Shown: piece after piece, positions 2,901-30,108 of the stretch | How the letters are laid out: each line of letters begins with the position of its first letter | Position numbering within the stretch: the stretch's first letter is position 1 | DNA from: Dichotomocladium elegans | Taxonomy: Eukaryota; Mucoromycota; Mucoromycetes; Mucorales; Lichtheimiaceae | Assembly (NCBI GenBank): GCA_025716815.1 | Contig: JAIXMN010000020.1 | Coordinates: 744,001 to 808,000 of the forward strand | Direction: 5' to 3' | DNA length: 64,000 bases | The notes under the pieces: model-generated | Databases searched by the model: none | What the model saw: the letters and a program-made list of their open reading frames with translations, nothing else | What the model was told of the DNA's origin: nothing | Position numbers and translations under genes: made by a program

Positions 2901-3530
2901 TGTCCCTCTTCTCCCTCTCCATCACCTCCCCCTTCTGTCCACCTGGTAGGCGGCCCGTGACCTACCCTGCGTGTAACGCAGTTCTGGACGAAGGCAGCGA
3001 GTTTATATTCTCGCGTATCGGAGTGTCAGGGGAGCACAACGTATTGTTTTACGGCGTTGTTGTCCTACGAATGAAGACGTCCAACAATGAGGGGAGCAAC
3101 TATCAACTTCGGCGGAAAGAAGGGGTTGTATACGCGTACGCTCTTTCAGCAATACCTACAGCTCATCGCGCAGGCCGTAGCTCATGCTTTGTGATGCCAT
3201 GCTCAGTGCAAGTTTCCATTCTCGATTAAGAAATGGTGGTGCTTCGTGCAAAGATAAATGTGGCCCAAAGGTCGGCGACAAACCTCCATCATCAAAATCC
3301 CGGCATATTCGACAGCGTACAGCGGTCGCGATGTCCTTCGAAATGTGCGGTTCATATACGTTCGGCGAAACTTTTGGGGAAAAATACACCCTCTAAACCC
3401 CCCTCACCGAGGAGATCATCTTCGTTATCGGTTTGCCTGATGCGTTACCAAGTCAAGAGTATGAAGAACCATTGCCTAGGCGCTACTCCAAATGAAACGG
3501 CCCGCAATGTGCAAAAACATCGTCACTAGA
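2901..3530. other. No recognisable gene
   Basis: Several short overlapping frames occur, but none has conserved motifs, and no convincing splice chain could be built. I see no RNA gene. Confidence 0.3.
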
Positions 3531-4345
3531 CTAAAGCAAGAGCAAGAGCAAGAGCTAGAGCTAGACAAGAACAAGAACAAGAACAAGAACAAGAACAAGA
3601 ACAAGAACAAGAACAAGAACAAGAACAAGAACAAGAACAAGAACAAGAACAAGAAAAAGAACAAGAAAAAGAAAAAGAAAAAGAACAAGAAAAAGAACAA
3701 GAAAAAGAACAAGAAAAAGAACAAGAAAAAGAACAAGAAAAAGAAAAAGAGCAAGAACAAGAAAAAGTACAAGAGAAGGAGAAAGAGAACAACAACCAGA
3801 AGAAGAAGAAGAAGAAGAAGAAGAAGAAGAAGAAGAAAAAGAAAAAGAAAAAGAAAAAGAAAAAGAAAAAGAAAAAGAGCAAGAACAAGAAAAAGAAAAA
3901 GAGAAGGAGAAAGAGAACAACAACCAGAAGAAGAAGAAGAAGAAGAAGAAGAAGAAGAAGAAGAAGAAAAAGAAAAAGAAAAAGAAAAAGAAAAAGAAAA
4001 AGAAAAAGAAAAAGAAAAAGAAAAAGAAAAAGAAAAAGAAGAAGAAAAAGAAAAAGAAAAAGAAAAAGAAAAAGAAAAAGAAAAAGAAAAAGAAAAAGAA
4101 AAAGAAAAAGAACAAGAACAAGAACAAGAGAAAGTACAAGAGAAAGAGAAAGAGAAAGAGAAAGAGAAAGTGAAAGAGAACAACAACCTGAAGAAGAAAA
4201 AGAAGAAGAAAAAGAAGAAGAAGAAAAAAGAAGAAGAAGAAAAAGAAGAAGAAGAAAAAGAAGAAGGAGAAGAAAAAGAAAAAGCCAAAGTAATTCTGAT
4301 AGCCAAAGAAGAAAAGCAAGAACGAAAGAAGAAGAATAGAAATAC
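3531..4345. repeat. Polypurine block, (AAGAAC)n / (AAAAAG)n / (GAA)n
   Basis: About 0.8 kb is almost pure purine on the + strand. It is built of nested tandem units: AAGAGC near 3535, AAGAAC to about 3650, then AAAAAG and GAA runs. A higher-order unit recurs near 3776, 3899 and 4167, in which 'gagaacaacaacc(a/t)gaag' is followed by GAA repeats. Because the strand lacks T, all its forward frames and the reverse frames stay open for about 300 codons as K/E/R/N or S/F/L runs. These are composition artefacts, not proteins. Confidence 0.95.
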
Positions 4346-5903
4346 CAGAGAGGAGAAGAAAAGACAAGTCCAATGTGCAACAAAGGAAGGAAAGAAGCAA
4401 ATATCGACGAAGAATACCACGAGGCAAGAGAAAACCAAAGGGCAAGAACCATAGAAATACAATTACGACAGAACAAAGCTATCTGCCTGTCGATAAAACA
4501 AAGCACATCGCGCATGCACCTGACACGACAGCAGAAGTCCCAAACCCTTTTCTGTACGGAAAATCCAAACTATCTCCACAAGGGCAGCAATACGATGATC
4601 GAATAACCATAACAGCCAACGATGCAATAAGTTGAATTTGCCCATTGGATCAAGGGTGACGACGTCTCATCTGCACGGCTGTTTCGGTCTCTGTCGTCTT
4701 TAACGCAGAAACCCTCCCATGTTCACATTCCACTCGAATGTGGCAACCCTCAAATGTCAAGCGATGGCTGTTCACTCCCGCAGAAGAGTTATATGTGTCC
4801 TGTTATTGTGTGCGGTCGAGTTCGACGATATGACAATGCATTGATATCCTATCTCCTGGTGTGTTATGAATAGTCCCAGCTGACGGTATTCGTCCACGTG
4901 CACAGTATTCTGATTATTCCCCAACGATTCACGAAACTACACGATTGGGGGCGTCACTTCCGAAATATGGACCTTCAAATTACTGCCACATAGCAAGTGC
5001 AACACCTTGGCATACGCATTCATCCAGCCCATCGCCCTCCAGAACAATCAGCATCCACAATTTCCGCTGCGGTGCAACTATCAATACACCGACCCGCATC
5101 TTTTAGCACCAAAAATTCTCTGGAGCAAGCTGTAGACTAGGACTTTTGTTGTATTAAATGCAACTAGCATAGTGGGTACAAGCGAATGTAAAATGGTCAT
5201 GTGTAGATAGTGCGAGAAAGAACTTCATCTAGAAAAGATATCCTATACATAATGATTAAAGCATGACTGCCCTACCTCATTTGATTGTATATACTTTAAG
5301 TACATACGAACAACGATTTCGAGGTCACTACGTATCTTAAGCAGCACATGTTATTACGAAATATTGTCTTTGCTTGATATGGATGAAACATTCACTACTT
5401 TTTCTTTTCTCGTGTCAGCTGCTGATGTGATAATACTGTATTTATCGTATCTCTTACCAGCAAACGCTCTACTGGTATACATAGCGACCGGTAAATCGAG
5501 CGCTGACTGTATATGGTGATGGATAAGGTACCTATTCGTAAAACTGACAAGATCAATATATGTTATTCGTCAGAGCCCGCAGGATCACAAAAGCCTTTTT
5601 AAAGAGATGTCAGGTAGTATTCTTTTTCTTCAGGATGTTTATTGCATCGCTTAACCCCGTCTTCTATTGTACAGGGTACAACCCGCCAGGAAAGGCGGAG
5701 AAGGGGAGGAGGGAACGACGAAACGTTCATTGCCTTTGATGCTGGTGTATTTTTTTGCGCTCACAAAAGAAAAAAGATTTCTGACTTTCTATTTTTGAAT
5801 GATCCTGCGACTTGACCCTTTTTTTTGTGTGTGTTAAATCCTCTCCAACCGACATCACCACCAGCTCTCTTGTATATTCCATCACACCCCGCCATCGGAA
5901 ATA
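4346..5903. other. Intergenic, no gene seen
   Basis: AT-rich sequence between the polypurine block and the Nup93-like gene. No frame with recognisable motifs was found. A T-run lies at about 5817-5827, close upstream of the next gene's start codon. Confidence 0.4.
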
Positions 5904-19117: not shown

Positions 19118-19151
19118 AGAAAGTTAGAAAGAACAAAGCACTGATACGAAG

Positions 19152-20577
19152 TATTATACACTATTTTTCAAAATCAAAAGTCGCACTCTGCCAGTTCTGA
19201 AGTCGCAGAGTCGCAAAAATACAAATCGCATTTTGCCCAGAAATCTATACGCGTGATGACACATCGAATGACACATACATACACGGAAAGATTCGCACAT
19301 TCTGAAATGGGCAACCTATTTTTCTACCAAGATGGCCAAGGTCATGTCGTTGATGAGCGTGGCTGTCCTGAACCTATGGACTATGCTATTGATGAGGAAA
19401 TGGACCCATTTCAGTCCGTTTGTTCTCACACTGAATATCTGCGTAGCATATCTTGCAAAGATAACCCTGAGCTTACTCCCACACACATTTCCCCAGCGAA
19501 AGGACACAGACATTCGGATGAAAGAAGCTGGGGATCAAGCGCAGTTACACAGCATCAACTGACCCAAGACAAGGTCAGATTTTTCAAACGGATGTTTGAG
19601 AAGATCTTGAGTGGGTCAGCTACTAGGACTCCATATTCGTTCAGTCCAGCGATGGGCATTACAGTACGAGAAGGGCCCTGACAGCGTCTTTAAGAAACCT
19701 AACGCGGGGGGGGGGAACTGTTCGCGTATTCTCAATGAAGAGCATAAGCGCATTATTTTAGAATGCGTTGATAAAGACCCATCCAATTGCCCTAGAGTAG
19801 CTGCTCCAGCGATTTGAGGGTCTCAAATCATCTAAAACGACGCTTCATCGATTTATGGAAAACGTATGCAACTTGTCATTAAAAATGGTTCGGGTTCAGC
19901 CTATAGACAGGAATAGTACTGCGAAGATCCAAGAGCGCCTTGACTGAGCATGCAGATAGGATAGGACCGACATCGACTTGCAAAGAGCTGCGTTTTTTTT
20001 TCCTTTGATGAGGTTGGATTCCATATTAACATGAAATGCAGCATGGCGTAGTCCAAGAAAGGGGACCCCTGCAGTGGTTACAGTACCAAAGACAACCACA
20101 ATCGTGGGCGCAATCTCGGCATCAGGCATCATTCAATGTAGCTTGAGACTCCCGCAGCCACCACGCAAGGAAAGAAAGAGGGCAGGACAATCTGAAGTTG
20201 CGAGCAGAGGAGCTGTAACTGGACATTATCTCAGCATCCTTACGGTTACGAAAGAGGAGATGGATAAGTATGAACATATGAAGGGTCATTATTTGATAAT
20301 GGATAATGCACCGACCCATAAGGCTGAGGATATCGATATGCTTATCTTCTACCATACTTGCATGAACTTAATCCTATTGAGTAGTTTTGGTCAGTGGTCA
20401 ATAGCAAAGTTAAAGGCAATAGGTTCTTGGAACGCGAGATTGTTGATAACACAGATCAGCAAGGCATCCAATAGCTTAGAGCTGAGCGATTTCGAAGGTT
20501 TTGTTTCTCATTCTCATATGTGCTTAGTTGACTGCCATGCTGGGAGCAGCTGTTATCTTGTTTACGACATTTATTTT
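19152..20577 (+). pseudogene. Decayed Tc1/mariner-like transposase, copy 1
   Basis: The left end begins at a TA followed by 'TACACTATTTTTCAAAATC' and shares over 100 bp with copy 2 in opposite orientation. Coding remnants in several frames: a shared N-terminus ('DEEMDPFQSVCSHTEYLRSI'), a helix-turn-helix part ('VRRAQRWALQYEKGPDSVFK'), 'RILNEEHKRIILECVDKDPS', a DDE-domain piece ('FFFDEVGFHINMKCSM') and 'HYLIMDNAPTHK'. Multiple frameshifts and stops break it. The family moves by cut-and-paste DDE/D chemistry with TA target duplication. No clear right terminal repeat was seen near 20600. Three more related copies lie in this window. Confidence 0.85.
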
Positions 20578-20720
20578 TGAATGTGTATTTTTCCCTTTTA
20601 TATTATAAAAAAAAAATAGAGCAAACGCAAATGCGGTGTTTTGTCTGTGTGTGTGTGAGATAATGTGTGCGTGTACAGTTGTGCGTGTGCATAAAGAAGA
20701 AAGAGAGAGTATGTCCTTTT

Positions 20721-25930: not shown

Positions 25931-26454
25931 TTCTGTGTGCGCGCGCGAAAGAGGCAGAGAGAAAAAAAGATGGGAGCGAGAAAGGAAAATAAAAAAGAGG
26001 TCGTCGCGCTTCTCCAAATGAGATCCCGTGGAAATGTTCCCACGGTATGTCGTCCTGCTTTCACTCGGAGCAAGGTGGCGCTTGAAAGCGCCTCCAGCCA
26101 ATCAAAACCGCTATTCCGATCGGTTGTAAGTTGATATTACTTACTACATTAAATGCACTCCACAAACCAGTTAGTAGTGCCAATGTCCGAATTTTTCTTG
26201 GTTCATAAGCATCGCCCATATTCTAAAGATCATAAAAGGGCTGGGGAAGAGCTGTAGATCTCCCATTTGAATCGTCCTATCCGTCCTGGTATACTTTATT
26301 TTCAAAAATAAATGTCGTAAACAAGATAAAATAATGTCGTGCATAGAATTATATAAATTTGTCGTATCAGCAGGTAAAAAGATTTCGCATCCATGGATTA
26401 AAACCTGTTAGTCAACAGAAAACACTGCTCCTTCTCCAATCCCGTTAACTTACA
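25931..26454. other. Intergenic between MCC2 start and Fanzor 3' region
   Basis: Holds the MCC2 promoter on the right side of the gene and AT-rich sequence up to the hairpin-rich tail of the Fanzor locus. No ORF of note. Confidence 0.4.
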
Positions 26455-26627
26455 ACACACCGTCCTTCCAAAGGAAGGGGGACTTGCCCCGAAGGGCTGT
26501 GGTTATCCTGGGTGCGTCAGCGATAACTGACGCGGAAAATTCTTGGTCGGGCTTACGGTCGTCTCGACCCGCCAGAGCGTGCACCTCGTGGCCTTCCTGG
26601 CCTTGCCCGTCGTGGTCTCACGCTGCG
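26455..26627 (-). ncRNA. Candidate guide-RNA scaffold (omega/fRNA-like) 3' of Fanzor
   Basis: This GC-rich stretch directly follows the Fanzor stop codon. Read on the minus strand it contains three consecutive simple hairpins: GCGTCAG/CTGACGC with a 6-nt loop (26514-26533), GCCC-TTCG-GGGC (26486-26497), a UUCG tetraloop closed by C-G, and CCTTCC-TTT-GGAAGG (26464-26478). In known Fanzor/OMEGA loci the guide RNA overlaps or follows the 3' end of the nuclease ORF. Position and structure fit, but transcription, boundaries and function are inferred. The flank below about 26455 turns AT-rich at once. Confidence 0.4.
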
Positions 26628-28750
26628 CTACTGCTCTGATTCAGGTGAGTGTGGCCTTCCACCAGCTGCGGACGCTTGTGCAGCATTTCTTCTCTGAAAC
26701 CTTGCTGGGATGATACCATCTTCCCGAAGACCCCGGAGGATATGATGCATGTTGAGAGCCGCCGTCAGATCCCGGTTCCATAACCTTGGTTGACAAACAC
26801 CCTCTGCCATGCCTGCTGTACAGTTTTGATTTGTGCATCTATTAAAACGTCAAAATATTAAAATCTTTTTGGACATATAACACAACATCCCCGTCCTTCA
26901 TACCGTAGCAGGCCATGGCAGATCGTGAGCGGATTGTCGGGTCGTCAATAGGGGCGTGGATTAGGAACCATTTTAAAGGTAGCAAGGCTTTCATTGTCAC
27001 ATATAGGGCAGCACTTGCTTGTCTTGTACTCGTCGATCAAATAAATATTGCAATTGTTCTTCTTCAACAGCCGCCGGAAGCCGACACCACGGATAGGCTC
27101 GTGATATCTGGTATGCGGCGCAGACCAATTTCCCATCACGAAAACGGACCTACTGCCAAACTTCGCATTCAAAGAGTTGAGAAGCTTTTCATCTGCTTGC
27201 TGCTTCTTGTAAAATGCTGGCAGGCGAAGTTTTTAAAAAAGAAATTGCGGGTTCGGGTGGTTCGTAGTGGTTGTCGCGTAGAAAGACTTGAGAACTATAG
27301 AGACCCGGTTCTTGGCGGCGAGGTATCCGTCGTAGTTGTGCACGGAAAGCGTATGACTTTGAAATTGAGATAGACTCTGCTCAGCCAACGCGACCTCGGG
27401 TCGCTCTAACTTGAGTCGTTCTCGGAGTCTGCGGTACCGTTTGGTCTTCTGTGTATGATCTTGAATCTGCTTTGTATATCGGAAAGTCTGATGGTTGTCG
27501 GGTGAAGAGTTCTCATGTACGCAATACAACAGATTCCTTCTGCCAGGATCAATGGTGACCCATTGTCCTCTATAGTCTTCGTTCCGGACTATCTGTGGGG
27601 TGACATACTCGATATCTTCGCTCTGGGTGCCAAATCTCTGTCCGAAACCCGATTGAAGGCCATTTGTCTTCTTGAACACAGTAACACTGACGCCATCAGT
27701 GTGAATAGTCCCACGGAATTGGAGCAACTCGGATTCTTGGGGTTTGAAAGCTCTTGATTTCAGGTTTACAACACGTCTCCAGTACTCCATATTGCTTGTG
27801 TGGGATTCCATTTTGCAGCCCAGGATATGGTAGCAAAGGATTTTCGTATCAATCTCCATGTAGCATGGTGACCACGAGCGACGAAGTGGAAAACAGTTGA
27901 ATCCGCGTATTTCGTTCTGTTGACAAACACGTGCAAGCTGGAAGAAGGCGTTGAAATGCTTAACAGGATTGGCCTTGGCGTCGTAATAGATACTCTGGTG
28001 TTGGAATTGGTCGTTTCGGGGGTAAGCGTTTAAGACAGGCTGTAGGATATCGTATGCTTCCCGAAGAAATCCAGGTTCGGCATTAATGTCTTCCCTCAAA
28101 ACACCTCGACGGGCAATGGCTAGCTTGAATCCTGTGGCATGCCGGGTGACGGTTTCATAAAGGTCCTGGCGTACTTGATCGGGGCTTAGGCCCTGTGCGA
28201 TTAACTCCCGCTTGCGGTCGGCTTTTCTCTGACGAAGATTCAGGATGACATTGATGACACGCCGAAGGTGTTGCCCGAACCGCGTGTGGACATTATTCAC
28301 GTAAGCAGTGTAAATATTGGAGCCTTCGTAAGAAGAACATTGCTGGGAATAAGGGAACGCAGGTCTGTCGTTTCCGGATATCCGAAGGTACTCATCCTTG
28401 TGGCAATTAATTAGTTCTCGGATGCGGGCAGTTTCGCCTTGGGTACGGCGTTCGGCTTTATTAACCACGGAGAGCCAAACTTCTGAAAAGAACTTTTCCG
28501 TGATGTTTTCCTGGATATTAAAAGGTGGATCGCGCGCTGCCTCGTTGATGAAAATATATTTGGCGAACGCGTACGCCTGTGTTGTGGTGCTGTGGACAAG
28601 GTCGACCAACTGATACAGACGTTCACGGTACTGCTGTCGCCAGCCGATGCCCCGTATGGACGATTTCACCCCAATTATACGGTCAGTGCGGTCAATGTTG
28701 TGGCCAGTGAGCATGTCTTCGGGAATGACGGGGCGGTGGGGTTGGGCCAT
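26628..28750 (-). pseudogene. Fanzor (eukaryotic TnpB-like, RNA-guided endonuclease family), two in-frame stops
   Basis: Two exons, 28750-26904 and 26838-26628, split by a 65-nt intron that keeps frame. Full length would be about 685 codons, normal for Fanzor1. Seen: RuvC-I 'GQWVTIDPGRRNLLYCV' with Asp401, 'FVMGNWSAPHTRY', 'RGVGFRRLLKK', 'IYLIDEYKTSKCCPIC' (Glu574 and the first Cys pair) and, across the intron, 'LLRCTNQNC', the second zinc-ribbon Cys pair. Then comes 'RLWNRDLTAALNM', with the RuvC-III Asp at 26770-26768. The frame is broken by TAA at 27235-27233 (codon 506) and TGA at 26947-26945 (codon 602). Homology continues in the same frame past both. Known family members cut DNA guided by an RNA from the 3' flank. 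This copy is either recently inactivated or carries sequence errors. Confidence 0.88.
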
Positions 28751-29469
28751 TTGGTGCGTGAGGACCTAAGGTATATTATTTCTTAGTATCGCAGAGCCGA
28801 GTATGAGAGCGGCCGTATTACTTTTCAACCATAAATGTGGTGCTGTGTTATTTTCTGTAGGCTGTATGGGCTCTAGTTTTGTATGTGGATAATGGAAAGG
28901 GAGAGTTTGCTTGAGCATCACTATTTATAGTGTCAGCAATGATCCATCTCCACAGTCATTTTCTTTTTCCCACTGGGTTCTTTAATGAGGTTTTACATAC
29001 CGACGTGAGGGCAGTCTGAAATCAACAATGAAATCCCAAACAATTCCAACAAGTAATTCCAAGAGACCATCTCAAGAATAATCCGATACATATCCGGCAC
29101 TTGCGTAATGTAGGAAGATTGTACTTCTTTTCGTACTCTCTCAGTCTCTTACAACACAACAAAACACGACACTGCTGTCATCCTTATCCATACGTTCAGG
29201 AAGTGTAGGTACATAATGAATAATTTCTCTGAATATTACAATGAGAACGCAGTAGTCTCCTGAAAGCCATTACTTCATTATTCCATTTCATAACCAGCGT
29301 CGGAGGTACAATATCCTAGATGAATGGCTCATTGACAGAGACAAGCACACTCCGATAGTTCTTTGTTCTTTCCAAGAATAAACTTACTCTTCTCGATATA
29401 GGATTCTTTTGAGTACGGCTATTTTTAGCGAAAATTGCATTCTAGAACAATAAATAGATTGTAACTTTC
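28751..29469. other. Intergenic 5' of Fanzor
   Basis: AT-rich, with no ORF of note. It should hold the Fanzor promoter and the left boundary of any mobile unit. I looked for terminal inverted repeats matching the 26.1-26.5 kb side and saw none. Confidence 0.4.
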
Positions 29470-30108
29470 TAATGCTCTTCATTGAGAATACACGATCGGC
29501 CCTCTGCTTCTACTTTCTTAAAATGCTGTCAGGGTTCTTTTCTTACTGTAGTGCCCATCGCTGTGCTGAACGAACATGGATTCCTAGCTGTTTTACTGCA
29601 GCTGATGCACTCAAGATCTTCTCAAACATCCGTTTGAAAAATCTGACCTTGCCTTGATCAGTGTATGCTATGTAACTGCGCTTGATCCCAGCTTCTTTCA
29701 TCCGTATGTCTGGATCCTTTCGTTTGGGTATGTGCGTAGCAGTAAACTCAGAGTTATCTTTGCACGATATGCTACGCAGATATTCAGTGTAAAAACAAAC
29801 GGATTGAAGTGAATACATTTCCTCATCAATGACATAGTCCATAGATTCAGGTCAGCCGCACTCTTCAATGATATGTCCTTGGCCATCGTTGTAAAATAAC
29901 AGATTGCTTATTTCAGAATGTAAAAGTTTATAAAGAGAAAGAGTCATAAGGATAGATGGATTTGTGACATCTTTCCGTGTATGTATGCGACATTTGCTTT
30001 TGTCATCACGCGTAAAGATTTCTGGGCAAAAATGCTATTTGTACTTTTGCGATCCTGCGACTTCAGAACTGGCAGGGTGCCGACTTTGATTTTGAAAAAT
30101 AGTGTATA
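29470..30108 (-). pseudogene. Truncated Tc1/mariner-like copy 2
   Basis: Minus-strand copy of the same family as 19152-20577. Its outer end at about 30108 carries 'TACACTATTTTTCAAAATC' next to TA. The shared 5' leader and N-terminal region ('EEMYSLQSVCFYTEYLRSIS', 'GIHVRSAQRWALQ') are present. The DDE catalytic part is missing, since homology stops near 29470. Stops and frameshifts are present. It ends about 100 bp before the VPS15 start codon, so the VPS15 promoter lies in or next to transposon sequence. Confidence 0.8.

Follow-up and report, generated by a model that had tools for sequence, protein, structure and literature searches.

Two Fanzor1 proteins with solved structures are among the closest described systems to the locus reported here. 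SpuFz1 from Spizellomyces punctatus (PDB 8gkh; PMC10432273), for which the catalytic residues are numbered D383, E541 and D606 (PMC10432273; PMC11423790), resembles our family in being carried by elements that occur in many copies, have inverted ends and show a conserved CA ahead of the left repeat (PMC10432273). PpFz1 from Parasitella parasitica, a member of the Mucorales (PDB 9cf0-9cf3), is the best solved homologue of our protein; it has already been solved and tested (PMC11423790), so that the original prediction, according to which few Fanzors have been studied in fungi of this type, was only partly right. The target motifs given for these nucleases are CATA for SpuFz1, ATN for PpFz1 and TTAA for GtFz1 (PMC10432273; PMC11423790); one sentence of PMC11423790 swaps the motifs of SpuFz1 and GtFz1, a discrepancy that is settled by PMC10432273 and by other passages. 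The Fanzor1 RNAs are given as 75-150 nt in length, and the three that have been solved begin with a 7-bp stem-loop 1 (PMC11423790).

The occurrence of Fanzor1 genes on mariner elements is already published. In the collection of Bao and Jurka (2013; PMC3627910), PGv-1, PUl-1 and PUl-4 are Fanzor1 genes on Tc/mariner elements with TA duplications, some of which, like the element described below, lack a full transposase; their hosts are a virus and the oomycete Pythium ultimum, whereas ours belongs to the Mucorales. Five of the 17 Mucorales families in the table of the same paper were compared by carrier, which is MuDr-type for ROr-4, PBl-3 and MCi-4 and unclassified for MCi-2 and MCi-5, and from these five the family studied here differs by its mariner carrier with the HTH remnant of a transposase. 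Among the literature titles retrieved, none pointed to a mariner-borne Fanzor in Mucorales.

The stretch of DNA that we analysed, hereafter the window, comprises 64,000 nucleotides of Dichotomocladium elegans (Mucorales; assembly GCA_025716815.1, contig JAIXMN010000020.1, positions 744,001 to 808,000 of the forward strand). Its Fanzor1 locus very probably belongs to a non-autonomous Tc1/mariner transposon that is present in many copies, and represents one that has been inactivated. The cargo of this transposon would be a Fanzor1 gene together with a structured RNA at the right end, and its intact copies would guide their own nuclease to cut empty sites. What was observed or computed in favor of this explanation comprises homology, catalytic and zinc-binding residues, the intron, the stops, the ends and their mariner character, the copy number, the covariation of a hairpin, and an excess of synonymous change in a set of copies selected by protein score. 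We consider the mariner setting and the RNA candidate worthwhile additions to known Fanzor1 biology.

The Fanzor1 gene and its relatives

The gene is encoded on the minus strand, where exon 1 (26904..28750, start ATG at 28750) is followed by a 65-nt GT-AG intron (26839..26903) and by exon 2, which can be read up to a premature TAG (26628..26838). All sequence motifs named in the original prediction are present: in the spliced protein, VTIDPGRRN occupies residues 398-406, the zinc ribbon halves CPIC and CTNQNC residues 581-584 (26999..27010) and 617-622 (26820..26837), and WNRDLTAALNM residues 636-646. The predicted intron between the two exons holds as well. Its length is no multiple of three, and the frame is restored when the segment GT...AG (26903-26839) is spliced out. 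The join is supported by the fact that a 69-nt intron is found at the same place in all 16 related copies (L002-L017; GT-AG in 15 and AT-AG in L008), and that the solved Fanzor1 chains align unbroken across it.

When the window protein, with X at the positions of its stops, was compared with a library of solved structures, PpFz1 (9cf0) was matched at E=1.8e-124 and SpuFz1 (8gkh) at E=4.3e-50; at E values up to 10 these were the only two distinct sequences found, both of them Fanzor1. A hand count on the alignment places the catalytic triad of SpuFz1 (chain positions 777, 935 and 1000) opposite three residues of the window protein: D401 in RuvC-I (27548..27550), which lies within IDPG and hence in a DPG signature, E574 (27029..27031), the alternative Glu in a DEYKTS motif, and D639 in the WNRD of RuvC-III (26769..26771). 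The general Fanzor motif, D-X(125,275)-[TS][TS]-X-X-[C4 zinc finger]-X(5,50)-RD (PMC3627910), can be followed through the spliced protein from D401 via TS 577-578 and the two ribbon halves to RD 638-639. Judged by sequence, an E value of 1.8e-124 against a solved Fanzor excludes a match by chance, and the locus is a well-supported, genuine member of the Fanzor1 family.

The profile search proposed for the joined translation had a divided outcome, as the matches to solved Fanzor1 proteins were not accompanied by any Pfam family at cut-off (top hits PH_fung_RdRP, E=0.031, and Cas12f1-like_TNB, 0.14). A Mucor homologue, P0002, likewise stayed under cut-off (Cas12f1-like_TNB, 0.00055), and PF26935, which is annotated on most homologues in the protein database, did not appear in our Pfam scans. 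We regard this null result as weak counter-evidence; since Pfam gave nothing above cut-off for the joined protein, the assignment rests on the solved structures.

The window protein and PpFz1 have in common the DPG motif, the alternative Glu, the zinc ribbon and WNRD. They differ between window residues 497 and 505, where seven residues stand against 108 in the PpFz1 chain; to judge from the alignment, the long insertion that is missing here is probably the cyclophilin-binding FRI domain of PMC11423790. A further difference from PpFz1 lies in the stop codons of the window copy. SpuFz1 differs from the window family in its transposon ends, and its native RNA has been demonstrated, whereas that of the window family is a prediction. 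With the protein of an intact relative (L003) as the query, 108 matches led by Syncephalis, Mucor and Rhizopus were retrieved from the protein collection, the best ten being 42-48% identical over 83-96% of the query. The best-matching homologues, from Mucor mucedo, M. saturninus, Rhizopus microsporus and Syncephalis plumigaleata, are Fanzor1 proteins that have not been annotated as such; in a tree with 23 of the 108 matches, they fall on branches apart from the D. elegans subfamilies.

A search of the 39.4-Mb assembly with the exon-1 protein returned at least 94 matches, a lower bound with 85 candidates scored among 702 first-look candidates. Full-length cover of the query was seen in 25 rows, including L002-L017, which possess a 639-aa exon-1 frame without a stop; all 16 are open over both exons and encode 709 aa. 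The remaining matches are fragments, decayed copies, or members of two subfamilies with about 50% identity, B (L073-L078) and C (the C57 locus), which we set beside the window type, subfamily A. In a tree of 29 rows that includes the database matches mentioned above, all three subfamilies group together (99/98), and A is the sister of B (99/96); the position of C is less sure because it was flagged as a long branch.

A candidate guide RNA 3' of the gene

Just 3' of the family stop codon, A copies carry a 7-bp hairpin (GCGTCAG-TTATCG-CTGACGC; 26514..26533 of the minus strand in the window), which reads GTGTCGG-TTATCG-CCGGCAC in B copies. Its pairing pattern makes it a candidate for the start of a guide-RNA scaffold, namely for stem-loop 1 of an omega/reRNA that, as outlined with RNAalifold, would begin where the Fanzor frame ends and reach as far as the right end of the element (26294..26540, minus strand). 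In 32 aligned sequences, two of the seven pairs have changed on both sides and are still paired (CG to UA in seven sequences, AU to GC in seven), and 222 of the 224 cells are standard pairs. The covariation score was reached by none of 500 shuffles, which ignore the relatedness of the sequences, and sliding the alignment into six other registers produced no double change; of the five measures, two did not rise above the shuffles (double-change pairs, 394/500; pair types, 494/500). As the changes probably trace to the single A/B split, the support amounts to two events, not fourteen. The alignment draws on 44 distinct right-end rows, from which further distinct rows and L078, with its odd-looking right end, were left out; L030, L060, L076 and L083 never entered these rows, having no findable right end. 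In the decayed copy L083, two of the seven pairs are broken by eye, and this weakens the case for the stem there. The covarying hairpin nevertheless provides a concrete RNA candidate for testing.

The same hairpin might instead be a different RNA feature, for example a terminator, part of a 3' untranslated region or a hairpin with a regulatory role, and have no function as a guide scaffold. Its location can be argued both ways: it follows the gene and precedes the right end, which is the region of Fanzor reRNAs, and has the 7 bp of stem-loop 1 in the three solved Fanzor1 RNAs, but it is far from the right end (~220 nt in the window, ~240 nt in most A copies used), and this span exceeds the RNA lengths given for Fanzor1 (PMC11423790). 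The distribution of the hairpin is similarly divided, since the distant copies C57, L079 and L080 do not have it, yet it is kept in the shortened copies L070, L074, L081 and L082, which have lost part of the stretch toward the right end (itself altered in L070 and L081); the shortest version, in L074, measures 110 nt and belongs to a copy with an open exon 1 and a stop in exon 2. Rfam yielded no match, whether the whole window was searched at gathering scores or the right end with an E limit of 1. The post-stop stretch of young copies is at least as variable as their intron (6 private changes in 131 sites against 2 in 69, or 45.8 against 29.0 per kb), and folds of the right-end segment are just mildly more stable than those of shuffles (z of -2.36 for L003, -2.15 for L074, -1.57 for L070 and -0.72 for L073). 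With these points in its favor, a function other than that of a guide scaffold deserves to be taken seriously, even if we rate its chances as less than even.

Two further structures were considered. RNAalifold paired the six bases that open the segment with GAAAAT in the right inverted repeat. Since these six pairs hardly vary (31 or 32 of the 32 sequences have the commonest pair type), and since three of four single-sequence folds lack the outer stem (it was formed in L070, and not in L003, L073 or L074), we treat it as hypothetical. A UUCG hairpin after stem-loop 1 is possible with 4 bp in both subfamilies, in registers that differ by eye, and was not counted. The short element L070 consists of a transposase fragment, a Fanzor tail, the hairpin and the altered right end, with no Fanzor body, and thereby resembles the 'ghost' loci described for Spizellomyces.

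Taking the hairpin as part of a guide scaffold, the following mechanism can be proposed for the family. An intact two-exon gene would yield a 709-aa Fanzor1 RNA-guided nuclease, and a transcript that begins at the post-stop structured segment and continues through the right inverted repeat and the TA into flanking DNA would provide the scaffold together with a copy-specific guide. The nuclease would then cut the matching empty site adjoining the left-end (T/C)ATA motif. A mariner transposase encoded elsewhere would move the element, and the cutting of empty sites would help copies to spread or persist. The processing of the RNA, the guide, the target motif, the cutting and any advantage to the element are inferred by analogy with the described Fanzor1 systems; the window copy would be incapable of these steps. 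The left boundary reads TATA in A copies and CATA in the Fanzor-less copies L064, L066, L067 and L069, so that (T/C)ATA is not specific to Fanzor carriers. One may go further and envisage a mariner lineage fused with an RNA-guided nuclease, in which the right inverted repeat would close the base of the scaffold (AUUUUC with GAAAAU), each copy would produce a guide against the empty form of its own site, and the nuclease would be preserved by selection copy by copy despite the lost transposase. We consider this extended version rather unlikely.

A probable mariner carrier

Delimited by the points at which genomic copies stop matching, the whole Fanzor1-bearing element spans 3,813 bp (26294..30106, minus strand) and is abutted by TA at both ends (30108-30107 and 26293-26292). 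Its left terminal inverted repeat, TACACTATTTTTCAAAATCAAA (30085..30106), is imperfectly matched by the right one, TTTATTTTTGAAAATAAAG (26294..26312); A copies have in common a left end that starts with TATACACC... and a right end that closes with ...AAAATAAAGTA. Relationship to mariner transposase genes is seen in the left ~600 bp, which contain a 102-aa ORF (29543..29851, minus strand), all that is left of a mariner transposase: its N-terminal, DNA-binding (HTH) portion is kept and the catalytic part is missing. This remnant shares 83% identity with a segment of the 475-aa transposase L066/L067, and a genome search with it yielded at least 150 matches (150 scored among 1411 candidates), two 475-aa frames among them; a Pfam DDE_3 domain was found in L066, the one such frame scanned. 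No DDE transposase was found in the window element. As it has the HTH remnant only and the transposase frames lie elsewhere in the genome, the window element is a non-autonomous derivative, and from its sequence we read it as a derivative of mariner with Fanzor1 as cargo. A Fanzor-less mariner copy, L064, is homologous to it at both ends (left, 77% over 665 bp; right, 84% over 117 bp).

These homologous termini, and the ~600 bp in common with mariner copies, speak against an element that was moved by another class of transposase (Helitron, IS607, Crypton, Harbinger or MuDr) and has ends that are merely mariner-like. Crypton, Harbinger and MuDr have been discussed for other Mucorales Fanzor1 elements, MuDr-type ones being known from Rhizopus, Phycomyces and Mucor (PMC3627910), and no clean empty site was found among 17 joined flanks; inspected by eye, the flanks show no longer duplication, and we deem such an origin very unlikely. 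On the mariner reading, TA target-site duplication by A-copy elements is likely but unproven. In right flanks, the base after the TA is T in 39 of 44 distinct cases, followed by A in 29 of 44; in left flanks, A or T precedes TATACAC at -1 in 27 of 29 cases and at -2 in 27 of 29 (32 rows minus L047, L050 and L081, which are right ends read backwards), the boundary TA itself being partly built into the search patterns. The one paralogous site, L086 (C35:678080-678360), corresponds to the insertion site of L008, with ~50 bp in place of the element that could reflect a target deletion or an unrelated insertion. Because of this unexplained segment, the site is not taken as proof of TA duplication.

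Other copies preserve more of the carrier. B copies retain more of the transposase than window-type copies, and at the C57 locus (L071/L067) a full 475-aa mariner transposase and a divergent C-type Fanzor point toward each other. At the C44 locus (L072), the same transposase is accompanied by only the 3' end of a Fanzor. Together, the two loci suggest a composite transposase-Fanzor element; a right inverted end belonging to it was not found.

A second mariner of the same kind lies within the window at 19145-20580 on the plus strand; no Fanzor was seen in its frames, and its transposase is broken into an N-terminal (19145-19681) and a C-terminal piece (20035-20580), neither of which reached a Pfam family. 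Many A copies additionally contain a nested insertion, ~170 bp in most, which has inverted ends (CAGTGGCCGC / GCGGCCGCTG in L003, at ~1082-1255) and lies between TA. It is present in 24 of the 26 distinct A copies having both anchors; the window copy (site near 29000) and L023 are without it and both read GTATGTA there, which could be the ancestral state or an excision trace.

Decay of the window copy and possible constraint on its relatives

The window gene is broken, since an in-frame TAA (27233..27235) and an in-frame TGA (26945..26947) interrupt it on the minus strand and a TAG (26630-26628) stands ahead of the family end. The original prediction had taken this TAG for the end of the gene; comparison with genomic relatives places it 75 nt (25 codons) short of the usual family TAA at 26555-26553. 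The claim of a full layout at normal length is thereby not borne out, as no intact Fanzor1 frame exists in this copy. Of the designation as an RNA-guided nuclease gene, the Fanzor1 family part stands (solved homologues, triad, zinc ribbon, motif), whereas the premature stops speak against a working gene. The window copy is a fossil of a multi-copy transposon family. Were the gene functional after all, its stops would have to lie in unrecognised introns or be read through. The frame is indeed open outside the two stops and the early TAG, with no frame-shifting deletion counted, but both stop positions are ordinary coding sequence in the intact L003 and in all 16 open copies, both fall within segments aligned to the solved Fanzors, and the stop codons are of two different kinds; we consider a functional window gene extremely improbable.

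In the Fanzor frame of the 16 young copies, 34 private changes are synonymous and 32 non-synonymous, against an expectation of 77% non-synonymous (P=5e-7, omega 0.28). The HTH remnant of the same copies shows two synonymous and six non-synonymous changes (omega 0.81), which are too few to separate it from the Fanzor frame (Fisher P=0.26). When 23 of the 29 copies L002-L030 with a non-coding divergence below 3% were considered, 53 synonymous and 78 non-synonymous changes were counted (omega 0.44, P=1e-5); the other six have 87 and 186, the latter including seven stops (omega 0.64), and L021 and L027 are rearranged. The private changes of the window copy comprise 13 synonymous ones, 19 non-synonymous ones and two stops. 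Since protein score decided which copies were included, and such a choice favors low non-synonymous counts, the excess of synonymous change in young copies is a purifying-type pattern that is suggestive only. If upheld under unbiased sampling, the excess would mean that the copies depend on the nuclease that they encode. Irrespective of this, at least 16 open and very similar copies with different sites and right flanks offer a natural panel for the role of a Fanzor in its own host.

A purifying-type pattern might also be expected of a domesticated host gene that is no transposon cargo, a notion that is already contradicted by the dozens of copies that have termini in common and occupy unrelated sites, by the mariner ends and transposase remnant, and by the decay of the window copy, and that we regard as scarcely credible.

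Other features of the window

Two observations do not concern the transposon family. At 3476-4569, the window contains a purine-rich low-complexity repeat of ~1 kb in which several frames are open on both strands. The window also encodes a dihydroorotate dehydrogenase, which by itself would place the host in the Mucorales, probably close to the Lichtheimiaceae. An unnamed protein is 89% identical to it, and its closest named proteins are those of Circinella minor (85%), Phascolomyces articulosus (84%), Rhizomucor pusillus (83%) and Zychaea mexicana (82%).
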